Source: a virus. Taken from it: a stretch of 64,000 nucleotides of DNA. This document shows positions 19,705 through 61,726 of this stretch, one piece after another; positions within the stretch are counted from its first letter, which is position 1; every line of letters begins with the position of its first letter. Under the pieces are notes generated by a model. It searched no databases. It was given only the letters and a program-made list of their open reading frames with translations, and was not told the origin of the DNA. The position numbers were made by a program, and so were the translations under genes. The stretch spans positions 178,597 to 242,596 of IMG/VR virus record IMGVR_UViG_3300033153_015063. One strand, given 5' to 3'.

Positions 19705-21717
19705 CTATCCGACCCGGGCCATGATGGTCCGTTGGATGAGTTTCAGGAACTCGGTAGGCAGGTCTTCGGTATTCTCGATACTGATGCTTCTCTTGTAGTA
19801 CTGCTTGACAGGGCTACCGTCGATGCCGATCCCAATGATGTTATCATTGGCGTACGAGCTCAGAACAGAGTGAAGGATACTTGAAGCGTCCATACTCTCG
19901 CCTTTCCACGAAGAACCCTGTGATGGCATCCCATCAGAGGTAACCAACAGGAACTTTTCTTGTTCTGGTCTGTTGTTGAGGCGGGTCATGGCGTAGTGGA
20001 TGGAAGCACCATCGTTGTTCATACAGCCCCCCGGGTCATCGACCACCTTGAACTTTCTACGTTCGTATTCGGCGTCGAATGGTTTGGGGACCCAGGTCTG
20101 AACAGTGTCACCGGCTGCCCCGAACATCTGAACCTCGAACGGGATGCCGAGTTGGTTCAGGACCTCACAGAAGAGTAGTACCGCCTCGCAAGCTTTGTTT
20201 GTCTTGTTACTACCCCACGACCCCATCGACCCCGACCGGTCCACGATGACGCTGAAAACAACATCGAGTGCTTTTCCGCCCTTCCGCTGCTTGAAGATGC
20301 GGTTGTTGAAGGTCAACGCCTTGATGAGACGCTTTCCGTTCAGTTTACCCCGGGTCTGACCACCGACCATCTTTTTACGGGACCTCTTTGCCGCTTCGAT
20401 GATGTTCTGGAGTTTGCGGGATGTCAGATTAACAAGCGGAGCGACCTTTTTTAACAGGTGCCAGTATCGTTCTGGTCTGTCGATACATTCGTGACTGACC
20501 CATTTTGTTGTACCATCTGCTATGGAAAGATTCGTGCAATCTTTTTTGGTATCTTGATCCTGCTTCCTGTCCTTTTTCTCTCTATCCACCTCTTCGTTGA
20601 TTTCTGGGAGCTCATCAGAAATATCAGATTCCAACTTTTCCTTTTTCTTCTCCATCATCTCGGTCAAGATCTCTTCGTCAGACTTTTTTCCATCCCCATC
20701 CTGCTTTTCTTTCTCGTCTTTCTTATCACCATCTTTACCAGAACCACCATCTTTCTCATCGGCGTCTTTGCCGCTTTCCTTACTGGAGCTGCCCCCCTCA
20801 TCTTCCCCCTCTCCTTTCTTTTTGTTATGAGTACCACCTTTCCCCTCTTTCCCTTCCTTATCCCGGGCTTTTTCAATTGCGTTATCTCGGGCCTGTTCGA
20901 CGGTTGTGGTGATATCAACGTCCTCGCCTTCACTGTCCCCAGGCTGCATCTGGGTAACAAAATCGGGCATATCGGTCTTTTCAGCCCGGTCTTCGGCGGA
21001 TTTCATCTTCTTTTCGATGATAGCCGCTGCTTCAATGACCTTCCAGAGACACGCCTTCGTGTTTAGCGTCATAGCCGCCTCTTGCATGATGCCAAGTGTA
21101 TCAGCATACAGCTTTTTGGCTGCGTCATTGCTGAACGGGGGCGGTTCACGATGGATGATGACCTTGATAGCCAGGGCGGCAATGAGTTGTTTCATGTAGT
21201 CTCCGCCAAGGGTAGACTCATTGGCCCATTGCCGCCGGTAGATACGCTCATGGTCAAGATAGAAATCCTCGGCTATCCCTGGAAGGCTAGTTGCCATACA
21301 GTTGTTGATTCTGTCGTCTTCGGAGATGTTCAGCAGATCCTTGACGAGAGTGAGTGCCTTCACGTTCTCGTTGTTCTGCTTGTTCCATTTGTTGACTACC
21401 TCTTTCATGCCTTTTTCCTTTACTACAGTGAAATCCGAGAATTTCACGTGGCCCACTTCATGGTAGTTGTCGGCCTTCTGTGTTGCCAGGACGTCCAATG
21501 GATCTGAGTATTCAACCCATGATCGTTCACAGATAGCAATGGTGTTGCCATCAGTATGTGACGACCCACTATCCCAGTGGTATTTGATGGCCCTGCCGGC
21601 GAGAATGTTACCGGTCTTACGGAGTCTGGTCAACCGCACGGTCTTTCCCGATGCCGATGGCAACCTCTTTGAGAACCATGCAGCTGGGAACTTTTCTGCT
21701 TGGACATGTTCTGCCAT
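19705..21717 (-). CDS. VWA-domain protein (CobT/BatA-like) partner of MoxR ATPase
   Basis: The C-terminal third of this 670-residue protein is a von Willebrand A domain with a MIDAS (DRSGSMGS, near residue 493) and a later TSDGMPSQG strand. The middle (about 290-420) is a low-complexity Lys/Glu/Asp/Gly linker. The N-terminus contains GHVKF and YLDHERIYRRQW, as in cobaltochelatase CobT-like proteins. Such proteins work with MoxR-type AAA ATPases, and one is encoded at 25090-26499 under the same type of promoter. A role in remodelling or assembling a complex is inferred. Confidence 0.8.
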   Translation of the reverse strand: MAEHVQAEKFPAAWFSKRLPSASGKTVRLTRLRKTGNILAGRAIKYHWDSGSSHTDGNTIAICERSWVEYSDPLDVLATQKADNYHEVGHVKFSDFTVVKEKGMKEVVNKWNKQNNENVKALTLVKDLLNISEDDRINNCMATSLPGIAEDFYLDHERIYRRQWANESTLGGDYMKQLIAALAIKVIIHREPPPFSNDAAKKLYADTLGIMQEAAMTLNTKACLWKVIEAAAIIEKKMKSAEDRAEKTDMPDFVTQMQPGDSEGEDVDITTTVEQARDNAIEKARDKEGKEGKGGTHNKKKGEGEDEGGSSSKESGKDADEKDGGSGKDGDKKDEKEKQDGDGKKSDEEILTEMMEKKKEKLESDISDELPEINEEVDREKKDRKQDQDTKKDCTNLSIADGTTKWVSHECIDRPERYWHLLKKVAPLVNLTSRKLQNIIEAAKRSRKKMVGGQTRGKLNGKRLIKALTFNNRIFKQRKGGKALDVVFSVIVDRSGSMGSWGSNKTNKACEAVLLFCEVLNQLGIPFEVQMFGAAGDTVQTWVPKPFDAEYERRKFKVVDDPGGCMNNDGASIHYAMTRLNNRPEQEKFLLVTSDGMPSQGSSWKGESMDASSILHSVLSSYANDNIIGIGIDGSPVKQYYKRSISIENTEDLPTEFLKLIQRTIMARVG

Positions 21718-25089: not shown

Positions 25090-26499
25090 TCAGAAATTGG
25101 TGTTAAAAACGTCCAGGATCGCTTTCTTATCATCTTCACGGAATAAATGATGGGTTGTAAAACTGTAGGCGGTGTGAACATCAAAATCGAGGCAGGCCTC
25201 GGCCCACATGATAAGGTGTCGGGTTGTGATGGTTGACCGAATGTCACTATCCCAGTTTTTGTATGCCGTGCGGATATCCTTGGCAAATCTCATCATGGCT
25301 GGATAGACAACATTGTGTTCGTCCTGGAAACCAGAGTAGTGCTTGACACACTCGATTTCATCGTCCTTTTCCAGATAGTCCATCTCCATGATGACACCGA
25401 AGCGGTCTTTGTCAGCAAAGTTGAGCTCGTGTGTTCCGCTATGTTCTCCGGTGTGGGATGGGTTCATTGTTGCGAAGAACCTGAAGTTCTGGTGAGCTCT
25501 GATTACATCATGTCCTTGTTGGGCCAGGGTGATGGAACGGGCTCCATCAAGGAGAGAACGAAGGATGAACAGGACTGTGTCCTCAGCTGCATTGATTTCG
25601 TCGAACGTAATCCAGTGCCCGAGCTTCATAGCGACGACGAGGGCACCATCGACCCATTTTGTCACAGGATTTCCACTCTCACCTTCGTCCAGGATGAATT
25701 GCCCCAGGATTTCATCTGGGGAAGTATGGCCGGACAGGTTGATACGCCAGTAGGGGATCTTTTCCATCCCAGCCAGATGCTCTATGGCCACAGATTTTCC
25801 ACAACCGGGGGGACCGACGAGAAGGGTGTTTTTGTTCTTCTTGACACCCCATCTGACGGCCCCGAGGATAGTTACGTCGATGTCAGGTAGACCATCGACC
25901 TTCAGATCCTGGTCGTAGTACTTGTCGATGGTCGGAACCATTTCAGAGAAATCTCTGAACACAACCTCCTCACCCTTCTTTTGTTCCTTCTGTGGTTTGT
26001 GAGTGGTTGTACTCTGTTGTCCGTCCTGTATCTGGAGGAGCTGCCCGAACAGGTCGGGGTCCGTGTCTTTCATCTGCACGATGAACTTTACCTTCTCCTC
26101 GAAGGGGAGTGAGCTGTAGGTGTCGAAGATGTACTTTGCCTGGGTCACTGTTGCGGACTTTCCAGGGACCCCTACGACCCCGGTACCTGCGGTATCGGCC
26201 AGTATCTCAACGGGATGCCATCCCATCGCCTTTACCAACCCCTTCGTCATGGTCCGGCTGTCTCGGAGGTCCCGGATGTTGTAGGTTCCTCCGTTTACGA
26301 GGGGGACCTCGCTTTTTACAGCAATACGAAGGCTACCTCGATAACCATTGAACCACACTATGGTATGGTTCCCGCCACGCTCCATGACCACGTCGGTCCC
26401 TTCTGGGGGGAGTTCGATTCCATCAAACTCGGAGGTCCAGTCGACCTCCTTGGATGCTCTGTCCGAACCAAGTGTTTGTGAGTTATTTTCACTCATCAT
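25090..26499 (-). CDS. MoxR/CbbQ-like AAA+ ATPase
   Basis: In this 469-residue protein the C-terminal AAA core has Walker A GPPGCGKS (229-236), Walker B WITFDEIN (296-303) and a sensor FFATMNPS. The N-terminal 180 residues carry a separate beta-rich domain (GIELPPEGTDVVME) and a Gln-rich linker. MoxR ATPases pair with VWA proteins to mature or activate a target complex; the VWA gene at 19705-21717 has the same composite promoter. The target is unknown. Confidence 0.88.
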   Translation of the reverse strand: MMSENNSQTLGSDRASKEVDWTSEFDGIELPPEGTDVVMERGGNHTIVWFNGYRGSLRIAVKSEVPLVNGGTYNIRDLRDSRTMTKGLVKAMGWHPVEILADTAGTGVVGVPGKSATVTQAKYIFDTYSSLPFEEKVKFIVQMKDTDPDLFGQLLQIQDGQQSTTTHKPQKEQKKGEEVVFRDFSEMVPTIDKYYDQDLKVDGLPDIDVTILGAVRWGVKKNKNTLLVGPPGCGKSVAIEHLAGMEKIPYWRINLSGHTSPDEILGQFILDEGESGNPVTKWVDGALVVAMKLGHWITFDEINAAEDTVLFILRSLLDGARSITLAQQGHDVIRAHQNFRFFATMNPSHTGEHSGTHELNFADKDRFGVIMEMDYLEKDDEIECVKHYSGFQDEHNVVYPAMMRFAKDIRTAYKNWDSDIRSTITTRHLIMWAEACLDFDVHTAYSFTTHHLFREDDKKAILDVFNTNF

Positions 26500-35903: not shown

Positions 35904-36647
35904 TTACTCGGTCCTTTTCAGGACCTTTTTACCGAGTGGCCCGATATCATAATAGACTGATTTGCCACGTTTAGATTTGATGATATAACCGTCGTCAGCC
36001 CATCCACCCAGTATCATGCCACCCTGACGCCCACCTGGAAGCATACCCGCTTTTTTCAGCTCGGTCTGGGCAACAGATCCCTCTTTCTCCAGATGGATGA
36101 TAAGGTTGTGTTTTTTCGAACCATCTCTCACGGCACCAGGTCCGACCAGGTCATCTTCGACCTTTTCCTTCCAGTTGGGGACGTCCTTGTTCTGGACTAC
36201 AATTTTCTTTAGTGCGGTCTTGTAGCGTTTGGCCCTACTTCCATACCCGTAGTTTACCTTCACGAACTCGTCGATGAACTGATTTTTCCAGGTGTCAGGC
36301 TTGAGTCTGGTTGTGGTTGGGTCGTCGGCCTGGATGAACTTACCCTCACGCCCTTTGAACACCACACCATCAATACTCTTACCTGTCAGACCTTCGAGTT
36401 GTTTTTGGAGTTCAGCGACCTCATGGTAGGTCTTTTCGTGTTCACCGGCCGGTTCAGTGACCAACTCTGGAGTATGGTCATCAATGTCGATGATAGTTGG
36501 AGTTTTGAACCTCTCCAGGAACTCCTCCTCCGAAAGCTCAGGTGCTTCTCCCACAGGCCCCTTGTATTGTGTCTTTCCTTCCTCGTACTCGTACCTGTAT
36601 CTGTTACCGGACCCTGGTGGAATCTTGTTGGACTGGCGGCGGTTCAC
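35904..36647 (-). CDS. tag-module protein T4, altered module start, winged-helix C-terminus
   Basis: 247 residues. The module lacks the usual MTxVE and starts MNRRQSNKIPPGSGNRYRY, because the GTG start overlaps the T5 stop (GTGA). The rest of the module is intact. The C-terminus (LIIHLEKEGSVAQTELKKAG, then DDGYIIKSKRGKSVYYDIGP) looks like a winged helix. It is translationally coupled to T5, so two tagged proteins are made from one message. Confidence 0.65.
   Translation of the reverse strand: MNRRQSNKIPPGSGNRYRYEYEEGKTQYKGPVGEAPELSEEEFLERFKTPTIIDIDDHTPELVTEPAGEHEKTYHEVAELQKQLEGLTGKSIDGVVFKGREGKFIQADDPTTTRLKPDTWKNQFIDEFVKVNYGYGSRAKRYKTALKKIVVQNKDVPNWKEKVEDDLVGPGAVRDGSKKHNLIIHLEKEGSVAQTELKKAGMLPGGRQGGMILGGWADDGYIIKSKRGKSVYYDIGPLGKKVLKRTE
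36513..36625. repeat. module copy identical to 63888-64000
   Basis: This 113-nt stretch, encoding residues of the tag module in T4, is base-for-base identical to 63888-64000 in T10. The genes are unrelated on the downstream side, so only the module DNA was copied. Confidence 0.9.
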
Positions 36648-37153
36648 TTTTTTTGTGGTATATGGAAGAAATCCTCCGTTTCCTTCACATTTTCCATCTT
36701 ACGGAGCGATTTTTGAAGAGCTGTACTGGCCTGAAACTTTTCGACCACGATACCATTCTCATAATCTGATATTATTTGACGTAAAGCATCCTGATATCTT
36801 CCCTGACCTCGATATAATTCATCGAGCTCCGTGTTCCAGATTGCTATCAGGTTGATATTATCTATTCCGACCTGTTCTTTGAATTTTTTACTATCGCCAA
36901 CGTACTCAAAACCAGCGATATGGCCGATTCGTTTTCGGCCATCATAGATACCATATATCGCTGTTTTATACTCAGACTTCAAACGACGCACCCTGGTTGT
37001 ATATGAGACGTTTTTACCAGCCATCCTCTCCATGAACTCAGCCTCTCCCAGCTCAGGTGCTTCTCCCACAGGTCCTTTGTACTGTGTCTTGCCATTCTCG
37101 TACTCATAGCGGTATCTGTTGCCACTTCCAGGAGGGATTTCAACTATGGACAT
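36644..37153 (-). CDS. tag-module protein T5 with GNAT-like domain
   Basis: 169 residues. The module is at 1-46. The rest (YGIYDGRKRIGHIAGFEY, then DELYRGQGRYQDALRQIISD, then a final ASTALQKSLRKM helix) resembles a GNAT acetyltransferase, including the RGQGR acetyl-CoA loop. A degenerate TATA (TTCTTATCC) lies 26 nt upstream. It is the first gene of a pair with T4. Confidence 0.6.
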   Translation of the reverse strand: MSIVEIPPGSGNRYRYEYENGKTQYKGPVGEAPELGEAEFMERMAGKNVSYTTRVRRLKSEYKTAIYGIYDGRKRIGHIAGFEYVGDSKKFKEQVGIDNINLIAIWNTELDELYRGQGRYQDALRQIISDYENGIVVEKFQASTALQKSLRKMENVKETEDFFHIPQKK

Positions 37154-46201: not shown

Positions 46202-46576
46202 CTATCTACCCCTCAACTCTTTCGTCTTCCTGGCCAACGCCAACGAACCTCCCAACGTTTTAATAGCCTCACGTGGGGCGTGTTCAGGTAGCATAAGTCT
46301 ACCCTCATAAACAATCGCCACATCTGAACCATTGTAGTAGATTAATCTGGGGCAGTTTTGTTTACACTGGCATCGTGTGGCTTTTGCCACCCCTTTCTCA
46401 TCTCGACGGTCTTCCATCAACAGAAGAGTAGGTGGTTCTTGATCCATAGCCGCCATGAACTCCTCCTCCGTCAACTGAGGGCTATCCCCGACCGGCCCCT
46501 TGTAGACCGTAGATCCACCTTCGTACTCGTACCTGTATTTATTCCCTGAACCCTCAGGTATCTCTACGGTGGTCAT
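46202..46576 (-). CDS. tag-module protein T8 with Cys motif
   Basis: 124 residues. The module is at 1-46 (VEIPEGSGNKYRYEY, then YKGPVGDSPQLTEEEFMAAM). The rest is short, with TRCQCKQNCPRLIYY as a possible metal site. Part of its module DNA (GAACTCCTCCTCCGTCAACT and following, about 48 nt) matches T9 exactly. Confidence 0.65.
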   Translation of the reverse strand: MTTVEIPEGSGNKYRYEYEGGSTVYKGPVGDSPQLTEEEFMAAMDQEPPTLLLMEDRRDEKGVAKATRCQCKQNCPRLIYYNGSDVAIVYEGRLMLPEHAPREAIKTLGGSLALARKTKELRGR

Positions 46577-54376: not shown

Positions 54377-54712
54377 GTGGTGATGTATGTGGTTACAGGA
54401 GATGATATCCTTGACGCTATGCTGAACGGGACTGATGCTGAGTTCGCCGGGGTCCTTGAGAACTACTGGCACGAACTGGCCGTTGAGATGAAAGACAACG
54501 AGTATCTCCGAAAGAGAGAGCTCTTCGACCAGGTGTCCAACCCCGAGAACTGGAAACTCCCGACCCGACCGGTGGAGTTCGATACCCTGGATGAAGCTGA
54601 TGAGATGCTGTCTGCTATCACCCATTTTGTGGGTGGTGCTGAGATGTTGGGTCTCCCATCAGGGAAAATTGCTGTATGGTCGAAGGGTTACTATCATCAC
54701 ATCGGTGCGTAG
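54377..54712 (+). CDS. unknown protein under promoter P6
   Basis: 111 residues or slightly fewer. GTG (54377), ATG (54383) and GTG (54389) are all in frame, and the GGTGAT site best serves 54389. Helical and acidic (FAGVLENYWHELAVEMKDNE, DEADEMLSAITHFVGGAEML). Not recognised. A T-rich terminator follows. Confidence 0.55.
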   Translation: MVMYVVTGDDILDAMLNGTDAEFAGVLENYWHELAVEMKDNEYLRKRELFDQVSNPENWKLPTRPVEFDTLDEADEMLSAITHFVGGAEMLGLPSGKIAVWSKGYYHHIGA

Positions 54713-54760: not shown

Positions 54761-54831
54761 CCACACACTATAATTGGCTGCACCTTACACTATAATAATC
54801 TATAAAAGGGAAAAGACTGGTTTAGTTGCTG

Positions 54832-55350
54832 ATGGCTGTCAACACCAGTGAGAAAAAAACTGTTGGTAGCGACGGTAATGTCACTCTCCAGACGCCATTT
54901 CTTGCAATGATACTAGCTCTGGGCGTCTCGTTGTTGGTTATTATCATCTACACGAGTGGGCTTTTCAAGTACGCTTACACACTGTTTGTGGTGTATATGA
55001 TATATACCTCGATAGAGCGTCAAACAGAACCGATGGAAGTAAAAAAGCAGGAAAACCCTGGGTTGGTGAGGAAAGACCTTGGGATTGACGAGAACCATAT
55101 TATTTTTGGCGTCGATAAAATCGGTGGCATCAAAAAAGTTGATGATGTTGACGTTGATTCTGTAGAGTTGTTGATTGCTGAGCCAGATAACGCCAAAGAA
55201 ACGGACGATGATGAGTTGTGTTGGGTTATCTTTCGAGAGAGAGAGGGAAAGATAACAGAACATATCATCGTCCGTTCATTTATACTTGGTAGGATTATGA
55301 TTTATTCGTGGGGTGAAAACGATGGGCTCATTGAAGGAAGAGTTAGATAA
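54832..55350 (+). CDS. membrane protein at the head of a translocation operon
   Basis: 172 residues from the ATG at 54832, which is 28 nt downstream of a TATA (TCTATAAAAG) and therefore leaderless. Two transmembrane segments lie in residues 22-65 (LAMILALGVSLLVIIIYTSG, AYTLFVVYMIYTSI). A soluble domain follows. It overlaps the ATPase gene by about 29 nt. Confidence 0.6.
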   Translation: MAVNTSEKKTVGSDGNVTLQTPFLAMILALGVSLLVIIIYTSGLFKYAYTLFVVYMIYTSIERQTEPMEVKKQENPGLVRKDLGIDENHIIFGVDKIGGIKKVDDVDVDSVELLIAEPDNAKETDDDELCWVIFREREGKITEHIIVRSFILGRIMIYSWGENDGLIEGRVR

Positions 55351-57001
55351 ACGAGATAAAATAAAAGTGAAAAACGAAGATTTCTGTGCTTTTAAGACAC
55401 TAATACGTCTTGGTAAAAATATAAAAAGGATGGACCGCAGTCTCCCACGTCCAGATACCACTTTCAAACAAATGATGAGAATAAAAGATATTAAACCTAT
55501 AGTAGTTGAATCCACCGATGAAAATGCAAAATTTAATCTTGGATATGTGGTATATGCTACGGACCCGAAAGAGACCAGAGTCTATAAAAAAATTGGGTAT
55601 GCCTCAAAGAAAAGTGGTTATCCAATTGAGGATATGATGAGTGTTCCACAACGAGACCTTATAGGAGTGACTGCCAATCCACTCTATCAGAACACCAATG
55701 GTATCTTCATCGGTGGAACTGGGTCAGCCAAAACTGTCAGGGCGAAACGAGAGGTCGAGAACCGCTATTTGAGAGGTAGACGCATCATCGTAGTAGACCC
55801 CAAAGGTGAGTGGGAACATGGCTTACCGTATCCCCAGGAAACTTCCAGAGAAATCCAGATGTTGAAGTGGAATGGCGAGGAACCAAGAGGTTTTCCTGTT
55901 CGTATCATCCCACCTCGATTCGATGATCGTATCGTTCTACACGATTCTGATATACTTTCGGCGGTTGCATCTTTACAAACAACCAACCAGAAGGCACAAG
56001 TGGCCATATTGTTGGGTGTTTTCAAATCACAAGTGGTTCCGACTCTTGACCACGAACCCCGTATCGGAGATTTTGTCGAGTTCTGCACGACATGGCAACA
56101 AAAACAGATGGATGGTGAGGGATTCGGAGACGAGGAAGAGGAAGAGGAATATGACGAAAAAGGAAAAAAGAAGAAAAAGAAGAAGAAGAAAGGTGTGAGT
56201 CTACCCCAGATTCAACGTGGACTGGAGAAATTGAAGGAACGTTATGACCGGGGTATGTTCGCACCAGTATTGGAAGAGATGTTGACCATGCCTCAACGTG
56301 AGATTGGTGTGGTCTCGGCCGGGACAGTCTTCAGAGGCGATCTGTATGGCGTTCTCATCGAACACTGGACCGGTCTGTTCTTCCGATATCTAATGCAGAA
56401 CACGTGCCCAAAGTGTTATGAGACATATACCAGTCGAGACCTCAACGTAGGTACGAAAATCTGTACAGAATGTGGCGGTCATCATAGCTCCGGTATCTGC
56501 CAGAAATGTAAATGCCGAGAGTTTAAAGTCAGGGAACCAAGCGATGAGTGTGTTCATTGTGCCGATGGTACCAAGGTGGTCAGAGTCATACCAACTGACA
56601 TTGTCCTTGAAGAGGTGCAGGAGGGAACCAGCAAGTCAGATACTCTGGTCAAAGAACTGGCACGTATCATGTCGATAAACAGGGTCATGGGTGGTGGTTG
56701 TGGTGTCATAATGATTACACAGTCAGCAACCGTGTTAAAGTCGTCTGGTGGTGGTCAGAACCCCATTTACACTAACCTGGGGACAGTCTCCTATGCCGGG
56801 GCCATGTCCGGGCGTCAGGATATTGCACCACTCAGAGAGGGTTTTGGAATTGCTTATGGTACAGAGAACACTGACGACGATAAAGTTCAAATCATCAGGT
56901 GTTCAGATACGAGTCTTGGCACGAAAATCTGCAACATCATGCCGCCGAGGTCCTATCACCCGATGTTTTCAGGATTCAATCCAAATAGGTTAAATGTGTA
57001 G
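55322..57001 (+). CDS. VirD4/HerA-type DNA-translocating ATPase with zinc insert
   Basis: 559 residues from the ATG at 55322, preceded by GGGGTG. Walker A GGTGSAKT (about 139-146) and RRIIVVDPKGEWEHGLPY after it fit TraG/VirD4 coupling proteins and HerA/FtsK-like pumps. A multi-Cys zinc region (CPKCYETY, CTECGGHH, CQKCKC, CVHCADG) is inserted before a VLEEVQEG strand and IMITQSA sensor. The Lys/Glu-rich EEEEEYDEKGKKKKKKK linker is flexible. It probably moves DNA through the membrane proteins of this operon, in conjugation-like transfer or virion packaging. Confidence 0.75.
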   Translation: MGSLKEELDKRDKIKVKNEDFCAFKTLIRLGKNIKRMDRSLPRPDTTFKQMMRIKDIKPIVVESTDENAKFNLGYVVYATDPKETRVYKKIGYASKKSGYPIEDMMSVPQRDLIGVTANPLYQNTNGIFIGGTGSAKTVRAKREVENRYLRGRRIIVVDPKGEWEHGLPYPQETSREIQMLKWNGEEPRGFPVRIIPPRFDDRIVLHDSDILSAVASLQTTNQKAQVAILLGVFKSQVVPTLDHEPRIGDFVEFCTTWQQKQMDGEGFGDEEEEEEYDEKGKKKKKKKKKGVSLPQIQRGLEKLKERYDRGMFAPVLEEMLTMPQREIGVVSAGTVFRGDLYGVLIEHWTGLFFRYLMQNTCPKCYETYTSRDLNVGTKICTECGGHHSSGICQKCKCREFKVREPSDECVHCADGTKVVRVIPTDIVLEEVQEGTSKSDTLVKELARIMSINRVMGGGCGVIMITQSATVLKSSGGGQNPIYTNLGTVSYAGAMSGRQDIAPLREGFGIAYGTENTDDDKVQIIRCSDTSLGTKICNIMPPRSYHPMFSGFNPNRLNV

Positions 57002-57012
57002 GAAGTAGTAGT

Positions 57013-57186
57013 ATGATGAAACGATTAATATTAGTCATCAAACGCCGAATACAACTATTTTTCTATAACAGGAAATCAGACTATTGGAAGTGTAAGGAAA
57101 AGAAAAGTGACCCATACATGGTCAATTTTGATTATAAACGTCTTCTTCGGAAGGAGTGTGAAAAATATGACGCCAAAGGTGAGTAA
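57013..57186 (+). CDS. 57-residue basic small protein
   Basis: ATGATGAAACGATT opens a frame of 57 residues (MMKRLILVIKRRIQLFFYNR, then KSDYWKCKEKKSDPY), ending TAA at 57184-57186. It fills the gap after the ATPase gene, and the next gene's ATG starts 1 nt after its stop. The hydrophobic-basic N-terminus may touch the membrane. Confidence 0.5.
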   Translation: MMKRLILVIKRRIQLFFYNRKSDYWKCKEKKSDPYMVNFDYKRLLRKECEKYDAKGE

Positions 57187-57187
57187 T

Positions 57188-57616
57188 ATGACCAAAGAGG
57201 AAGAGATGGCTATCTGGTGCAAGAAGAACAAAAACAATCGCTATGTTCTCAAATGGATTGAGAAGAATCCAGCCGGAAAGAAGTGGGTCGAGAATGGTCA
57301 CACTGACCTTGAGTGGGCTTTCACCGAGATGCCACTCTACTTCAATGATATCGAAGGTATCGTTGCTATGATATTCATATCAGTCTTTTTCTTAATCATA
57401 AGTGGTTTTGCATATTATTTTTTGTTTATGTTTATTGTTGTCATAACCATTCTCGGTGCAGGTTTCTTGTTGAATTGGCGTGATGAGAAAAGGAGGTTAG
57501 ATACCAATAAGAGAGAAAATAAGAGAGAAAATAATGATCGAAATAGTAAGTTATTCCATGATACGTTCGATGCTTGTATGATAACGAGTAAGAAAGGGGA
57601 TGACACAGGTGAATAA
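57188..57616 (+). CDS. membrane protein
   Basis: 142 residues from the ATG at 57188, right after GGTGAGTAAT. An upstream in-frame start would overlap the small gene. Two adjacent transmembrane segments (IVAMIFISVFFLIISGFAYY, FMFIVVITILGAGFLL) are flanked by charged ends. It lies in the translocation operon. Confidence 0.6.
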   Translation: MTKEEEMAIWCKKNKNNRYVLKWIEKNPAGKKWVENGHTDLEWAFTEMPLYFNDIEGIVAMIFISVFFLIISGFAYYFLFMFIVVITILGAGFLLNWRDEKRRLDTNKRENKRENNDRNSKLFHDTFDACMITSKKGDDTGE

Positions 57617-57617
57617 A

Positions 57618-57686
57618 ATGGAGATACAAATAGGTAGATTCTTCACGATTCTTTCTCTACGAATTAAGATGAAAAATAGTTGGTGA
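57618..57686 (+). CDS. 22-residue microprotein
   Basis: The ATG at 57618 follows AGGTGAAT at a proper distance. The frame (MEIQIGRFFTILSLRIKMKN, then SW) is amphipathic, and its TGA lies 4 nt before the next start, whose own GGTGA site overlaps the stop. Size and spacing suggest a real coupled microprotein. Confidence 0.45.
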   Translation: MEIQIGRFFTILSLRIKMKNSW

Positions 57687-57690
57687 CGAT

Positions 57691-59061
57691 ATGGGAAAAA
57701 GGGCAAAACAGGTAGCTTCAGGCTATGCACCTGGTAGTGGCACAGCCCAGCAGTACCCAGGTCAGGCTGCTATCCTGAATCTGGATGAAGGTACTATCAA
57801 CGAAATGGTCACTCCGCAGGTTGACCAGGCTATCGTCACTGGGCGTCTCCAGGAGATTCAGGACCACGCAGATGTCGGGGCCTATATGAGGGACTTTGAT
57901 AGAATTAAAGATAAAGCCCACTTCCTTTCCACAATCGGAGACCCCGATGAGTTAAAAAAGAAAGTCCCGAAGCTCGGACATTGTAAAGTCAAAACGCAGG
58001 ATGAAGTCGAGGAAATGTCAAAAAAGCAGAAGCGGGATACGGAGATACTCATCTATTTCCTGGTTGCTGTTCACATCGTTGGTTACGTTGCTGCGTTCGT
58101 TTTTGCATGGTATGTTATCTGGGGTATGGTCACCGGATTCTGGGGAAGGTTAGCTATCATTATAAACAAAGTTCTTAATGGGTATATAGTCACTGCACCC
58201 TATGGAGTCCCAGTTGTATTTCCTTTTACAGGAACATGCGGATTGTTTATAGGGACGTGGTTAATTTCCCTGGTTTGGTCTTCAATGCGTATTATCAGTG
58301 AGAAATTGGGTGGTTTTGCCGGTTTCTACTACATTATGGATGACAATATGAATGTCCGAGGAAGATTCTTCGCTGCTGGACAGACTTTGACAGGAACACA
58401 CATGGTCAGCGATACCGTCATGTGTAATGTATCCACTCCCGCTGAGAGTATCAACGAACCAAGATTCATAGCGGTCTGGAAAATGTTTAAAAGTTGGTTC
58501 CCGTTTTATCTGGGAAACCAGGTGAGAGTCGATAAAATAGTTATTTTCTCAACGAAGGATATGTTTTTCCCAACCGAGAATTACGCTAACCAGCACAACC
58601 AGATACTTGGTGAATTATACGATACTGGTTATTACTATACATCTGGACCGACAATCTATAAAATATATACATGTGACAAAGTTATGGCCTGGAACAGGAT
58701 ACCTCCTGGTGCTTACCCAAAAATCACCTACCAGGCGATGTCGGCCTACAAGGGTGTCAGCATACAGCTCCGTATCAAGGAAAAGAACCTCCAACTCCTC
58801 TTTACAGAGATTGAGTTGCTCCTTCGTAACAAACACATCACCGACAGGCACTTCATCAAGCTGGTCTCTGACCGTCTGACACAGATGGGATTGATTGACC
58901 GCCAGACCGGTGTCATCAGGGCAAAGTATGGCGGATACTGGGATAACATCGGAGAACGCCAGAAGCTGTCGAGTGGTTGGAAGCAGCTTTATGAGGACAG
59001 AAAGTTGCTCGAAGACGCCAAGGAGAAGTACGCTCCAAAGACACGCTATACGGGTGATTAG
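57691..59061 (+). CDS. multi-pass membrane protein of translocation operon
   Basis: 456 residues. The soluble N-terminus (1-115) is followed by transmembrane segments near 118-148 and 170-205 (YFLVAVHIVGYVAAFVFAW, FIGTWLISLVWSSM). A large C-terminal domain (about 210-456) contains YYIMDDNMNVRGRFFA and many aromatic residues. Not recognised. It could form the channel or anchor for the ATPase. The start of the next gene is immediately adjacent. Confidence 0.6.
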   Translation: MGKRAKQVASGYAPGSGTAQQYPGQAAILNLDEGTINEMVTPQVDQAIVTGRLQEIQDHADVGAYMRDFDRIKDKAHFLSTIGDPDELKKKVPKLGHCKVKTQDEVEEMSKKQKRDTEILIYFLVAVHIVGYVAAFVFAWYVIWGMVTGFWGRLAIIINKVLNGYIVTAPYGVPVVFPFTGTCGLFIGTWLISLVWSSMRIISEKLGGFAGFYYIMDDNMNVRGRFFAAGQTLTGTHMVSDTVMCNVSTPAESINEPRFIAVWKMFKSWFPFYLGNQVRVDKIVIFSTKDMFFPTENYANQHNQILGELYDTGYYYTSGPTIYKIYTCDKVMAWNRIPPGAYPKITYQAMSAYKGVSIQLRIKEKNLQLLFTEIELLLRNKHITDRHFIKLVSDRLTQMGLIDRQTGVIRAKYGGYWDNIGERQKLSSGWKQLYEDRKLLEDAKEKYAPKTRYTGD

Positions 59062-60948
59062 ATGTCGTTAACAGAAGCGAACGAGAACGAGAATCGTTTC
59101 GAACTTGGAGGGGACGATGAGGATGAAGAATTTAGCCTCTCCAAACTACGTGAACAAGTTGAGGTGTTTGACAACAAAGACAAAGGTAGACAGGAGAGTG
59201 CTGAGGCACTTACCTATCGCTGGTTGGAGTTGATGTTGGAGGGCGGACGGGACGAGATACTCTACGACCTGAACGTTCGAGAGTTGGTGGATATCGTCCC
59301 ATTCGCCCGACGCATCATACACTCTAAAATCGGACATATTCTTGGTCTGATGAAAAAGATAGCTGGTCTCCTGTACAAATACGAGTTGTTCGGTGAGTTC
59401 TACAGCAGCAGGACGCCGGGTATGTTCGGTGAAGACTACATCTCTATTCAAGGAGAACTTATCGAGAAGCAACTTGAGATGATAAAACTGATGCTTCCTG
59501 CTCTTGGAGCTGCCGACACTACATTAGATCAATTATCCTCAAACTTCGACTCTATTGGCTATGAACTGCAGAAGCAGGCAGTACCGAAGATGATGAGAGA
59601 GACCATCGTGGTTCTGTATCTACTTGCCAGAGAAGGTTCTGTCGAAGAGGCAAATCTCCAATTAATGGCAAAACGGCATGGTATCGAACACGTCCAGAAG
59701 CAGGTTCTCGAAGGTATTGAGTTCGGATGGGTCGAACGTGATGAGAACAAATTGAAGTGGAAATCGGCAAAGATGAGAACCTTCATGCTTACTATAGGTG
59801 AGATATCTGCAGTTGAGACACTTCCCGAAATCGTGAAGCAAAAGGAGGAAGATAACAACGCATTACGTCGTCAGGTTCGTAAGTTATCAAACATCGTGTT
59901 TAAATTAAAAGGTGGTCACGAGCTACTGGAAGAGTTTGATATGAGCGAACAGGAACTGGAAGAAATCGCCGAGATGAGTCCTGGTCCAGACCCCGAAATC
60001 AAAGCGTTGTTAGATGTTTTCACTGGTCAGATGACTGGTCTGGTAGGTGAACTGAAAGAGAGTAACAGGATACGGGACGAAGAGACACGCATCCTCCGAG
60101 AAGAGATATCTGACACCAAATTCACACCTTTCACACCGCCACCCCGGATCGAGGAATCGAGTCATTTTGATACGACCGACACTTTCTCATTAGATGATGA
60201 CCAAGAACTCGAAAACATACCTGTTTCTTTTGGGCTCGATGACGTTACTGAATCCGATGAGATTGATGAAAGTGATGGCGACACCACAGCCACAGATGAC
60301 ATCGTTGAACCTGACAAAGGTGTGAAGAAAAAAAAGCAGAGGGAAATAACGGATGAGGAGTTGGAAGAGGAAGAGAAAAGAAAAAAAGAGGCCCGTTCAA
60401 TGTTCGAAAAAACCAAGTTCGAAGCAAGAGATTTTGTTATGTGTGAGTTTTATCTGGGCCCAAAGGAAATAAAAGAACTGGAAGATAGACTGTCTACTCT
60501 TGATGAAGGTTCTGATGAATGGATACAGACAAAGGTAACGCTGGAGATGAAACCAGATACACATTGTAAGATAGGCTTCAAGCCAACTACTCTGGTGATG
60601 GACAACAAAACATGTATGTTTCAACTCCCGGTCCCAGACGAAGATGGATTTTATTGTGGTGTTACTGCATTGGTAAATAAGGGGTATGATGATGAAACAA
60701 TTTCTACTCTACTTGGTGATAGGGCAGCTACCTTTAAATGCCCTCATTGTGATGAGTGGTTCAAGAAGGAAATCTCCCTTAAGAGTCATATAAAAAGAAA
60801 TCATAAAGAAGAGAAAAAAACGGATGTCGAGGAGAAGCTCCCTTTTTGTACCTGCCGGACCTGTGGTTACATATTCCATGACGAAAAAGAGTATGACCTT
60901 ACTGATGGTAAATGCCCATCAGGTTGTGGTAAGGTCGAAAAAGAGTAG
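59062..60948 (+). CDS. coiled-coil protein with C2H2 zinc finger
   Basis: 628 residues. Long helical and coiled-coil parts cover 1-330 (EIVKQKEEDNNALRRQVRKL). An acidic linker with SDEIDESDGDTTATDD follows. Then comes FKCPHCDEWFKKEISLKSHI (C2H2) and a final four-Cys ribbon (CTCRTCGYIF, CPSGCGK). The C2H2 finger suggests DNA or protein binding. As last gene of the operon it may be the cytosolic adaptor that delivers DNA to the ATPase. Confidence 0.6.
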   Translation: MSLTEANENENRFELGGDDEDEEFSLSKLREQVEVFDNKDKGRQESAEALTYRWLELMLEGGRDEILYDLNVRELVDIVPFARRIIHSKIGHILGLMKKIAGLLYKYELFGEFYSSRTPGMFGEDYISIQGELIEKQLEMIKLMLPALGAADTTLDQLSSNFDSIGYELQKQAVPKMMRETIVVLYLLAREGSVEEANLQLMAKRHGIEHVQKQVLEGIEFGWVERDENKLKWKSAKMRTFMLTIGEISAVETLPEIVKQKEEDNNALRRQVRKLSNIVFKLKGGHELLEEFDMSEQELEEIAEMSPGPDPEIKALLDVFTGQMTGLVGELKESNRIRDEETRILREEISDTKFTPFTPPPRIEESSHFDTTDTFSLDDDQELENIPVSFGLDDVTESDEIDESDGDTTATDDIVEPDKGVKKKKQREITDEELEEEEKRKKEARSMFEKTKFEARDFVMCEFYLGPKEIKELEDRLSTLDEGSDEWIQTKVTLEMKPDTHCKIGFKPTTLVMDNKTCMFQLPVPDEDGFYCGVTALVNKGYDDETISTLLGDRAATFKCPHCDEWFKKEISLKSHIKRNHKEEKKTDVEEKLPFCTCRTCGYIFHDEKEYDLTDGKCPSGCGKVEKE

Positions 60949-60951
60949 TTT

Positions 60952-61032
60952 TTAATCTCCGAACCAGATGTACCACAGGGCATAGAGACCAACCACTACA
61001 CCAATCACGTAAAGCCATATTGGGATATCCAT
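60952..61032 (-). CDS. 26-residue single-span membrane microprotein
   Basis: ATG at 61032 (MDIPIWLYVIGVVVGLYALW, then YIWFGD), stop at 60952-60954. One transmembrane helix spans nearly the whole chain. An AATATA TATA box centred near 61055 is 24-26 nt upstream, so the message would be leaderless. It sits between two convergent genes, where no other function is apparent. Confidence 0.5.
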   Translation of the reverse strand: MDIPIWLYVIGVVVGLYALWYIWFGD

Positions 61033-61069
61033 AACAGGCAATCCCGAATGTGGTATATTATGTTTACTG

Positions 61070-61675
61070 CTAGTAATCCATGTGGAGTTCCATTGCTATA
61101 ACCCTTTTTTCCACGGGCTTTCTCCCAAGACCTTTGATGTCGCCCCAGAACAACTCACTCACACCACGCCATATCTGGTAATCCTCTTTGGGGTAGTATG
61201 CATCTCGGCTGAGAGGATTATATTCTTCACGTTCGGCACCCCAGAACTCATATTCGTGGAGATTGGTCAGTGCTTTGAACTCGCTATTGGTCATTTTCTT
61301 CGGGACCCATACCCACTTGTGGACCTTCTCACAGCCCATTTTCCCCTTATCCGCTATAAACTTCATCTCTCGTTTCTCATAGGGACCAATACTCCACCTG
61401 TCTCTGAAGGCTTCAACATATTTTGCTGTATGTTTACCTTCGGTGGACGTATCATCAAAAGGGGCGACGAATACGAATACTTCATCCTCTATCGGTTCCC
61501 TGACCATCTCCCGCCCCTCAAACTCTCCCCTCGATGCCACCTTCATCCTCTCCAGGAACTCCTCCTCCGTCAACTGAGGGCTATCCCCGACCGGCCCCTT
61601 GTAAACCGTAGCTCCCTCTTCATATTCATAGCGGTATCTATTCCCTGAACCCTCAGGTATCTCTACAGTGGTCAT
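61070..61675 (-). CDS. tag-module protein T9
   Basis: 201 residues from the ATG at 61675, which is 26 nt from a GTATATAAAG box. An upstream Met would be outside the transcript. The module is complete. The body (FVFVAPFDDTSTEGKHTAKY, then WRGVSELFWGDIKGLG) is unrecognised. Part of the module DNA matches T8. Confidence 0.65.
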   Translation of the reverse strand: MTTVEIPEGSGNRYRYEYEEGATVYKGPVGDSPQLTEEEFLERMKVASRGEFEGREMVREPIEDEVFVFVAPFDDTSTEGKHTAKYVEAFRDRWSIGPYEKREMKFIADKGKMGCEKVHKWVWVPKKMTNSEFKALTNLHEYEFWGAEREEYNPLSRDAYYPKEDYQIWRGVSELFWGDIKGLGRKPVEKRVIAMELHMDY

Positions 61676-61726
61676 CAAGGAATACAATGGGTGTTGAGTA
61701 TATAAAGAGTTCTAACCTCCCCTCCC

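Follow-up and report, generated by a model that had tools for sequence, protein, structure and literature searches.

A six-gene operon around a type IV secretion-like ATPase: a candidate DNA-export module in a large, probably archaeal mobile element

The window analysed here, a whole stretch of 64,000 nucleotides, comprises bases 178597-242596, the final part, of the IMG/VR virus record IMGVR_UViG_3300033153_015063 (242,596 bp). A compact plus-strand operon at window positions 54832-60948 encodes a P-loop ATPase together with small membrane proteins and a zinc-finger protein, and we give a probability of about one half to the reading that it is a membrane-anchored DNA-export module of a large plasmid- or virus-like archaeal mobile element. 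This reading draws on the matches of the P-loop and strand-2 region of the ATPase (gene B) to VirB4, VirD4, TraD, CedD and AAA_10/DUF87/TrwB, on the close packing and predicted joint transcription of the genes, three of which encode membrane proteins, and on the fact that gene B is the lone HerA-type ATPase of the record. It also draws on the record lacking matches to T2SSE, capsid, terminase, relaxase and portal families, with no structural PHROG among the matches listed, and on a surface-protein block that includes proteins with two C-terminal transmembrane (TM) segments, as in precedent plasmids. Modules of this kind described for pT26-2, for ORF112 of the Methanoperedens plasmid HMp and for ORF25 of pR1SE give the export idea a precedent.

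Because capsid, terminase and relaxase genes all went undetected in the record, the operon may be the means by which DNA of the element passes from cell to cell. For large archaeal elements in which neither capsid nor conjugation genes are recognisable, such as Borgs and Methanoperedens plasmids, a six-gene operon with a single motor of the type IV secretion system (T4SS) type offers a compact candidate for the step by which they spread, and could seed the search for similar modules elsewhere.

Results

Structure of the operon

The start sites of genes A to G were set from Shine-Dalgarno (SD) motifs and codon statistics. The gaps from A to G are -29, 11, 1, 1, 4 and 0 nt. Most of the internal genes have an SD-like motif ahead of them. 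The features are as follows, in window coordinates.

54800..54808 (+), TATA-like box CTATAAAAG, 24-32 nt before the gene A ATG at 54832; leaderless-type promoter whose position fits the record-wide TATA peak
54832..55350 (+), gene A, 172 aa; two-TM hairpin (aa 20-64) and beta-rich soluble domain
55322..57001 (+), gene B, 559 aa; P-loop ATPase, likely of the HerA/VirB4/VirD4 clade by profile and PDB matches
57013..57186 (+), gene C, 57 aa; basic protein
57188..57616 (+), gene D, 142 aa; no family match, two-TM hairpin, ends charged
57618..57686 (+), ORF E, 22 aa; doubtful gene; its SD-like motif, AGGTGA, shares bases with the 3' end of D
57691..59061 (+), gene F, 456 aa; 2-3 TM segments (aa ~120-195) and a ~260-aa C-terminal soluble part
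59062..60948 (+), gene G, 628 aa; soluble acidic protein with a C-terminal C2H2 finger and a second CxxC

A sequence-only reading of this DNA had placed seven genes here. The location and the tight clustering were confirmed, and six of the genes (A, B, C, D, F and G) are well supported by codon statistics. The seventh, open reading frame (ORF) E, had been taken for a microprotein but carries no coding signal: its score is -0.01 per codon, which 27% of the 871 short non-coding ORFs used as controls reach, and it is unproven as a gene. In contrast, the equally predicted 57-aa protein, gene C, scored above all 871 of them.

The ATPase

Gene B contains the following segments.

55712..55735 (+), Walker A, GGTGSAKT, a sequence motif
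55796..55813 (+), strand-2 motif DPKGEW (VVDPKGEW), aligning with VirB4 IIDPEREY and TrwB IVDPNGD
56405..56560 (+), Cys-rich insert with four CxxC, ahead of Walker B; presumably zinc-binding
56603..56623 (+), Walker-B-like VLEEVQE, in which Glu replaces the usual Asp; assigned by inspection

The P-loop and the DPxGE-type strand-2 motif match HerA/VirB4/VirD4 family profiles. Against Pfam, gene B matched AAA_10 (4.1e-5) and DUF87/HerA (0.009), both below the cut-off, and also TrwB. Among NCBIfam models, the matches were to VirB4-like (2.3e-5 and 4e-5), VirD4-like (0.065) and CedD (0.09) families and also to TraD; the nearest profiles are thus those of type IV secretion motors, at scores below the cut-off. 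In the PDB, VirB4 (4ag5, 0.023) and TrwB (0.18) were among the top matches of the P-loop segment. On these Pfam, NCBIfam and PDB matches, gene B is likely a member of the HerA/VirB4/VirD4 clade within the FtsK-HerA ATPases, at a level where no single subfamily is assignable. An AAA_10 search of the record returned gene B and a weaker helicase-like ORF, and a census of P-loops gave no other candidate, leaving gene B as the sole HerA-type ATPase.

The earlier prediction of a HerA/VirD4-like ATPase with a large zinc insert was borne out for both the ATPase class and the Cys-rich insert. The CxxC pairs stand at aa 365, 384, 396 and 413 (residue numbering from 55313) and are followed by IVLEE and then TQS; the role of zinc, read from the cysteines, is putative.

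Partner proteins

Gene D is the two-span membrane protein that had been predicted, whereas gene F, described before as multi-pass, has only 2-3 hydrophobic spans. A single-sequence AlphaFold2 (AF2) model of gene A gave a helix hairpin with a predicted local distance difference test (pLDDT) score of ~84 and a soluble part of low confidence. Proteins A, D and F appear to be oriented mainly toward the cytoplasm. The two-TM hairpins A and D are candidates for VirB3/VirB6-like membrane proteins, with no family match in Pfam or NCBIfam. By analogy, not homology, VirB3-VirB4 and CedA1/A2-CedB likewise have a small two-TM protein directly ahead of the motor.

In Pfam, NCBIfam and other libraries, A, C, D, F and G gave no family match above noise with the exception of the gene G finger, and gene F had no PDB match. 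The view that only the ATPase resembles a known family was confirmed apart from this finger, which matched zf-C2H2_jaz (1.2e-4, at the Pfam cut-off) and a ZFAT finger (0.006). A winged helix in gene G, judged by eye, is possible.

Expression signals and the record

When 234 starts across the record are taken together, TATA motifs are most frequent from -32 to -25, with 34 in one 4-nt bin against few elsewhere. SD-like motifs lie upstream of 77 of these 234 starts compared to 8% expected by chance, making them fourfold commoner. The TATA peak and the SD-like excess indicate that the host of the 242-kb element is probably an archaeon and point to leaderless transcription of the operon. The operon is one of few plus-strand blocks and lies near the end of the record, after a long run of minus-strand genes.

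The record ends (record positions 1-64 and 242533-242596) share 64 identical bp, and a gene joined across them is intact. Circularity was not accepted on this basis, because the repeat is part of a coding tag that occurs many times, and a tag gene at 215158 contains it a third time without change. The record may be incomplete.

An archaeal-type replisome is encoded in the record, including a PolB ~30% identical to those of haloviruses and clamp loaders. Other genes specify topoisomerases, a class II ribonucleotide reductase, thymidylate synthase, a 5-hydroxymethyldeoxyuridine (5-hmdU) DNA kinase domain, ParA-like and serine-recombinase proteins, many DNA methylases and one TROVE/Ro60 protein. 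The surface-protein block spans record ~65-102 kb (65673-81580 (-) and 88471-101076 (+)), ~140 kb from the operon. It encodes large secreted or surface proteins, with PKD domains or beta-propeller-like, that have signal or TM N-termini, and several of them end in two C-terminal TM segments.

The sequence-only reading had found no match to the usual VirB or capsid genes and had proposed a check for capsid genes elsewhere in the element. Record-wide family searches agreed with it, detecting no T2SSE/VirB11 (PF00437), relaxase (PF03432), terminase (PF03237), portal (PF04860) or HK97 capsid (PF05065). No structural PHROG was found in 116 small ORFs, nor among the best 25 of 32 families for 64 larger or unassigned proteins, a search in which jelly-roll families were not taken singly. 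These PHROG matches are also what bears on packaging as in DJR/SJR tailless viruses, where an FtsK-HerA packaging ATPase is linked to a jelly-roll capsid gene.

Search for relatives

No relatives of genes B and F were found in IMG/VR, none of gene B in GTDB genomes, GenBank phages gave B and F nothing beyond a single short P-loop match, and tblastn gave no match to B and F in 72,556 plasmids (PLSDB, where pR1SE is absent under KX687704). Sister elements sought through an 813-aa protein, RFC and GyrB were not found. Scans with degenerate DNA patterns that encode DPKGEW, GGTGSAKT or the repeated GSGN tag returned only unrelated or chance proteins. Such pattern scans require exact short peptides and reach close relatives, missing distant kin, so these results show that the operon is isolated at close range rather than proven unique.

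Comparison with known systems

In the pT26-2 core module of Thermococcales and Methanococcales plasmids, a HerA/VirB4-type ATPase (t26-14p) and orphan membrane proteins are proposed to serve DNA transfer (PMC6972569). The operon resembles it in combining such an ATPase with several orphan membrane proteins in an element that also encodes large surface proteins. The differences are the three small membrane proteins and the zinc-finger protein found here, and an element ~tenfold larger. The ATPase of pMEFER01, a member of the pT26-2 family, has neither DPxGE nor CxxC, unlike gene B, and phmmer gave no significant match of the operon proteins to this ATPase or to six other pMEFER01 proteins.

For the Methanoperedens plasmid HMp_v1, DNA extrusion has been suggested for the cluster of the HerA protein ORF112 (DUF87/AAA_10) (PMC9674854). 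The likeness, drawn from its description, is that of a large archaeal plasmid on which a DUF87/AAA_10 ATPase has neighbouring membrane proteins that show nucleic-acid-binding features. HMp also has a VirB11/7-TM cluster (PMC9674854), whereas no T2SSE domain was detected in the present record. The ORF25 ATPase of pR1SE is proposed to recruit plasmids into vesicles (PMC10818511), and pR1SE/apHPV share with this element one VirB4/TrwB/HerA/packaging-like ATPase accompanied by orphan and PKD/S-layer-like surface proteins (PMC10818511).

The Ced and Ted systems similarly have a VirB4/HerA-type motor, small two-TM proteins and a membrane channel (PMC9905601, PMC11868833). Their 6-7-TM CedA-like channel has no counterpart here, where F has 2-3 spans, and the only family match is that to CedD at 0.09. 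The P-loop/DPxGE region of gene B is most like VirB4/TrwB of VirB/VirD4 T4SS, but those systems have two motors, compared to one here with no VirB11 or relaxase detected. Matches of the operon to pNOB8 conjugation proteins by phmmer were not significant (TraG, E 0.08; VirB4, E 0.3). Gene 16 protein (gp16) of His1 was rejected as a parallel, being annotated as a 308-aa DnaA-like protein and not a HerA. The best reading from these comparisons is that the operon would be of the same general kind as the pT26-2, Methanoperedens and pR1SE modules, although not a detectable member of those compared by sequence.

Discussion

In the DNA-export reading, gene B would be the motor, a ring-forming ATPase of the HerA/VirB4/VirD4 clade. 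Proteins A, D and F would be inner-membrane partners that dock it to the membrane, after the manner of VirB3/VirB6 or CedA1/CedA2. The soluble zinc-finger protein G would bring the element DNA to the motor. Contact with DNA or with a partner is the probable role of the Cys-rich insert in B. Exported DNA would pass toward a recipient cell, or enter a vesicle or virion. The original suggestion of a conjugation-like or packaging apparatus is thereby upheld as far as a DNA-translocase-type ATPase with membrane partners. What the sequence shows is the operon structure, the P-loop motor class, the membrane spans, the C2H2 finger and a lone HerA-type ATPase; DNA movement, its direction and the contacts between partners are inferred, and conjugation and packaging are both candidate modes.

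Several points weigh against this reading. All ATPase profile scores of gene B lie under curated cut-offs and cover ~45-200 residues, its Walker A (GSAKT) and Walker B (EE) are each one residue off the canonical GxxGxGKT and hhhDE, and its single-sequence AF2 model was uninterpretable (pLDDT 34.5). No homologue or synteny was found, so that conservation as a unit is conjectural. Neither a relaxase nor a second motor was found in the record, itself possibly incomplete, and the archaeal host is deduced rather than observed. Archaeal conjugative plasmids generally have no recognisable relaxases (PMC9905601), so the absence of one here is compatible with conjugation.

A possible, though unlikely, alternative is that gene B is the packaging motor of a virus or plasmid-vesicle agent, pumping DNA into a membrane vesicle or novel capsid with A, D and F as a membrane portal. 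IMG/VR lists the record as viral, the replisome and nucleotide genes are virus-like (PolB, ribonucleotide reductase, thymidylate synthase, 5-hmdU DNA kinase domain), the terminase search left no other packaging motor in the record, and the signal/TM N-termini and paired C-terminal TM segments of the surface block, like pR1SE ORF25 (PMC10818511), would suit such an agent. However, the hallmarks of tailed-virus packaging were not detected in the record, in which terminase, portal and HK97 capsid families had no match and no structural PHROG stood among the matches listed; the surface proteins are encoded far from the operon; and gene B carries the DPxGE motif common to T4SS motors, with VirB4/VirD4 as best matches.

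Also unlikely is the bolder form of the export reading, that the operon makes up a DNA-translocation machine complete in itself and of new architecture, and that a giant archaeal element lacking a capsid has no other apparatus for its transmission. Such a machine would consist of one T4SS-type motor with a zinc insert, three small cytoplasm-facing membrane proteins and one zinc-finger DNA adaptor, its non-motor parts unrelated to VirB, Ced or capsid packaging.

We regard it as improbable that no DNA is exported and that the module instead exports proteins, or anchors and segregates the element DNA at the membrane as a maintenance device. HerA-superfamily motors also serve segregation and secretion, and the DNA-binding-type domain of G and the mainly cytoplasm-facing A, D and F would fit such a role, but a separate ParA-like protein is encoded in the record and the NCBIfam matches of gene B are to conjugation motors, not to FtsK-type proteins. 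A chance cluster of unrelated orphan genes beside a HerA-like ATPase, with no common function, is very improbable given the spacing of -29 to +11 nt, the single promoter and the shared membrane and DNA-binding theme, even though conservation of synteny could not be shown. A defence system was rejected, as PADLOC gave no match.

Additional observations

Directly upstream of the operon lies a 111-aa ORF (54383-54712 (+)) with its own TATA (~54352) and a T-run downstream; downstream and convergent is a possible 26-aa single-TM microprotein (60954-61034 (-)). A near-identical N-terminal tag, IPPGSGNRYRYEYxxGxTVYKGPVGxxPxLxEEEFL, occurs on 34 ORFs of the record with unrelated C-termini, for example at window 36644-37153 (-), 35904-36647 (-), 46202-46576 (-) and 61070-61687 (-), and a DNA pattern search did not find it in other IMG/VR contigs. 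An almost identical protein (NTGKLVKRAVQVKGQGG...) was present in eight IMG/VR contigs of different datasets (L013, L014, L019, L020, L022-L025), reflecting either an element of very wide distribution or a contaminant or standard common to the datasets. The 5-hmdU DNA kinase helical domain and the thymidylate synthase are among the proteins of window 1-33000, and their presence suggests that the element DNA may be hypermodified. A CobT-like VWA protein with a MoxR-type AAA ATPase close by, and a TROVE/Ro60 protein, were noted at window 19705-21717 and 25090-26499 (-) and at locus L010:12573-14225 (-), and a pair resembling the CobT-like VWA/MoxR-type AAA proteins was also matched elsewhere in the record.

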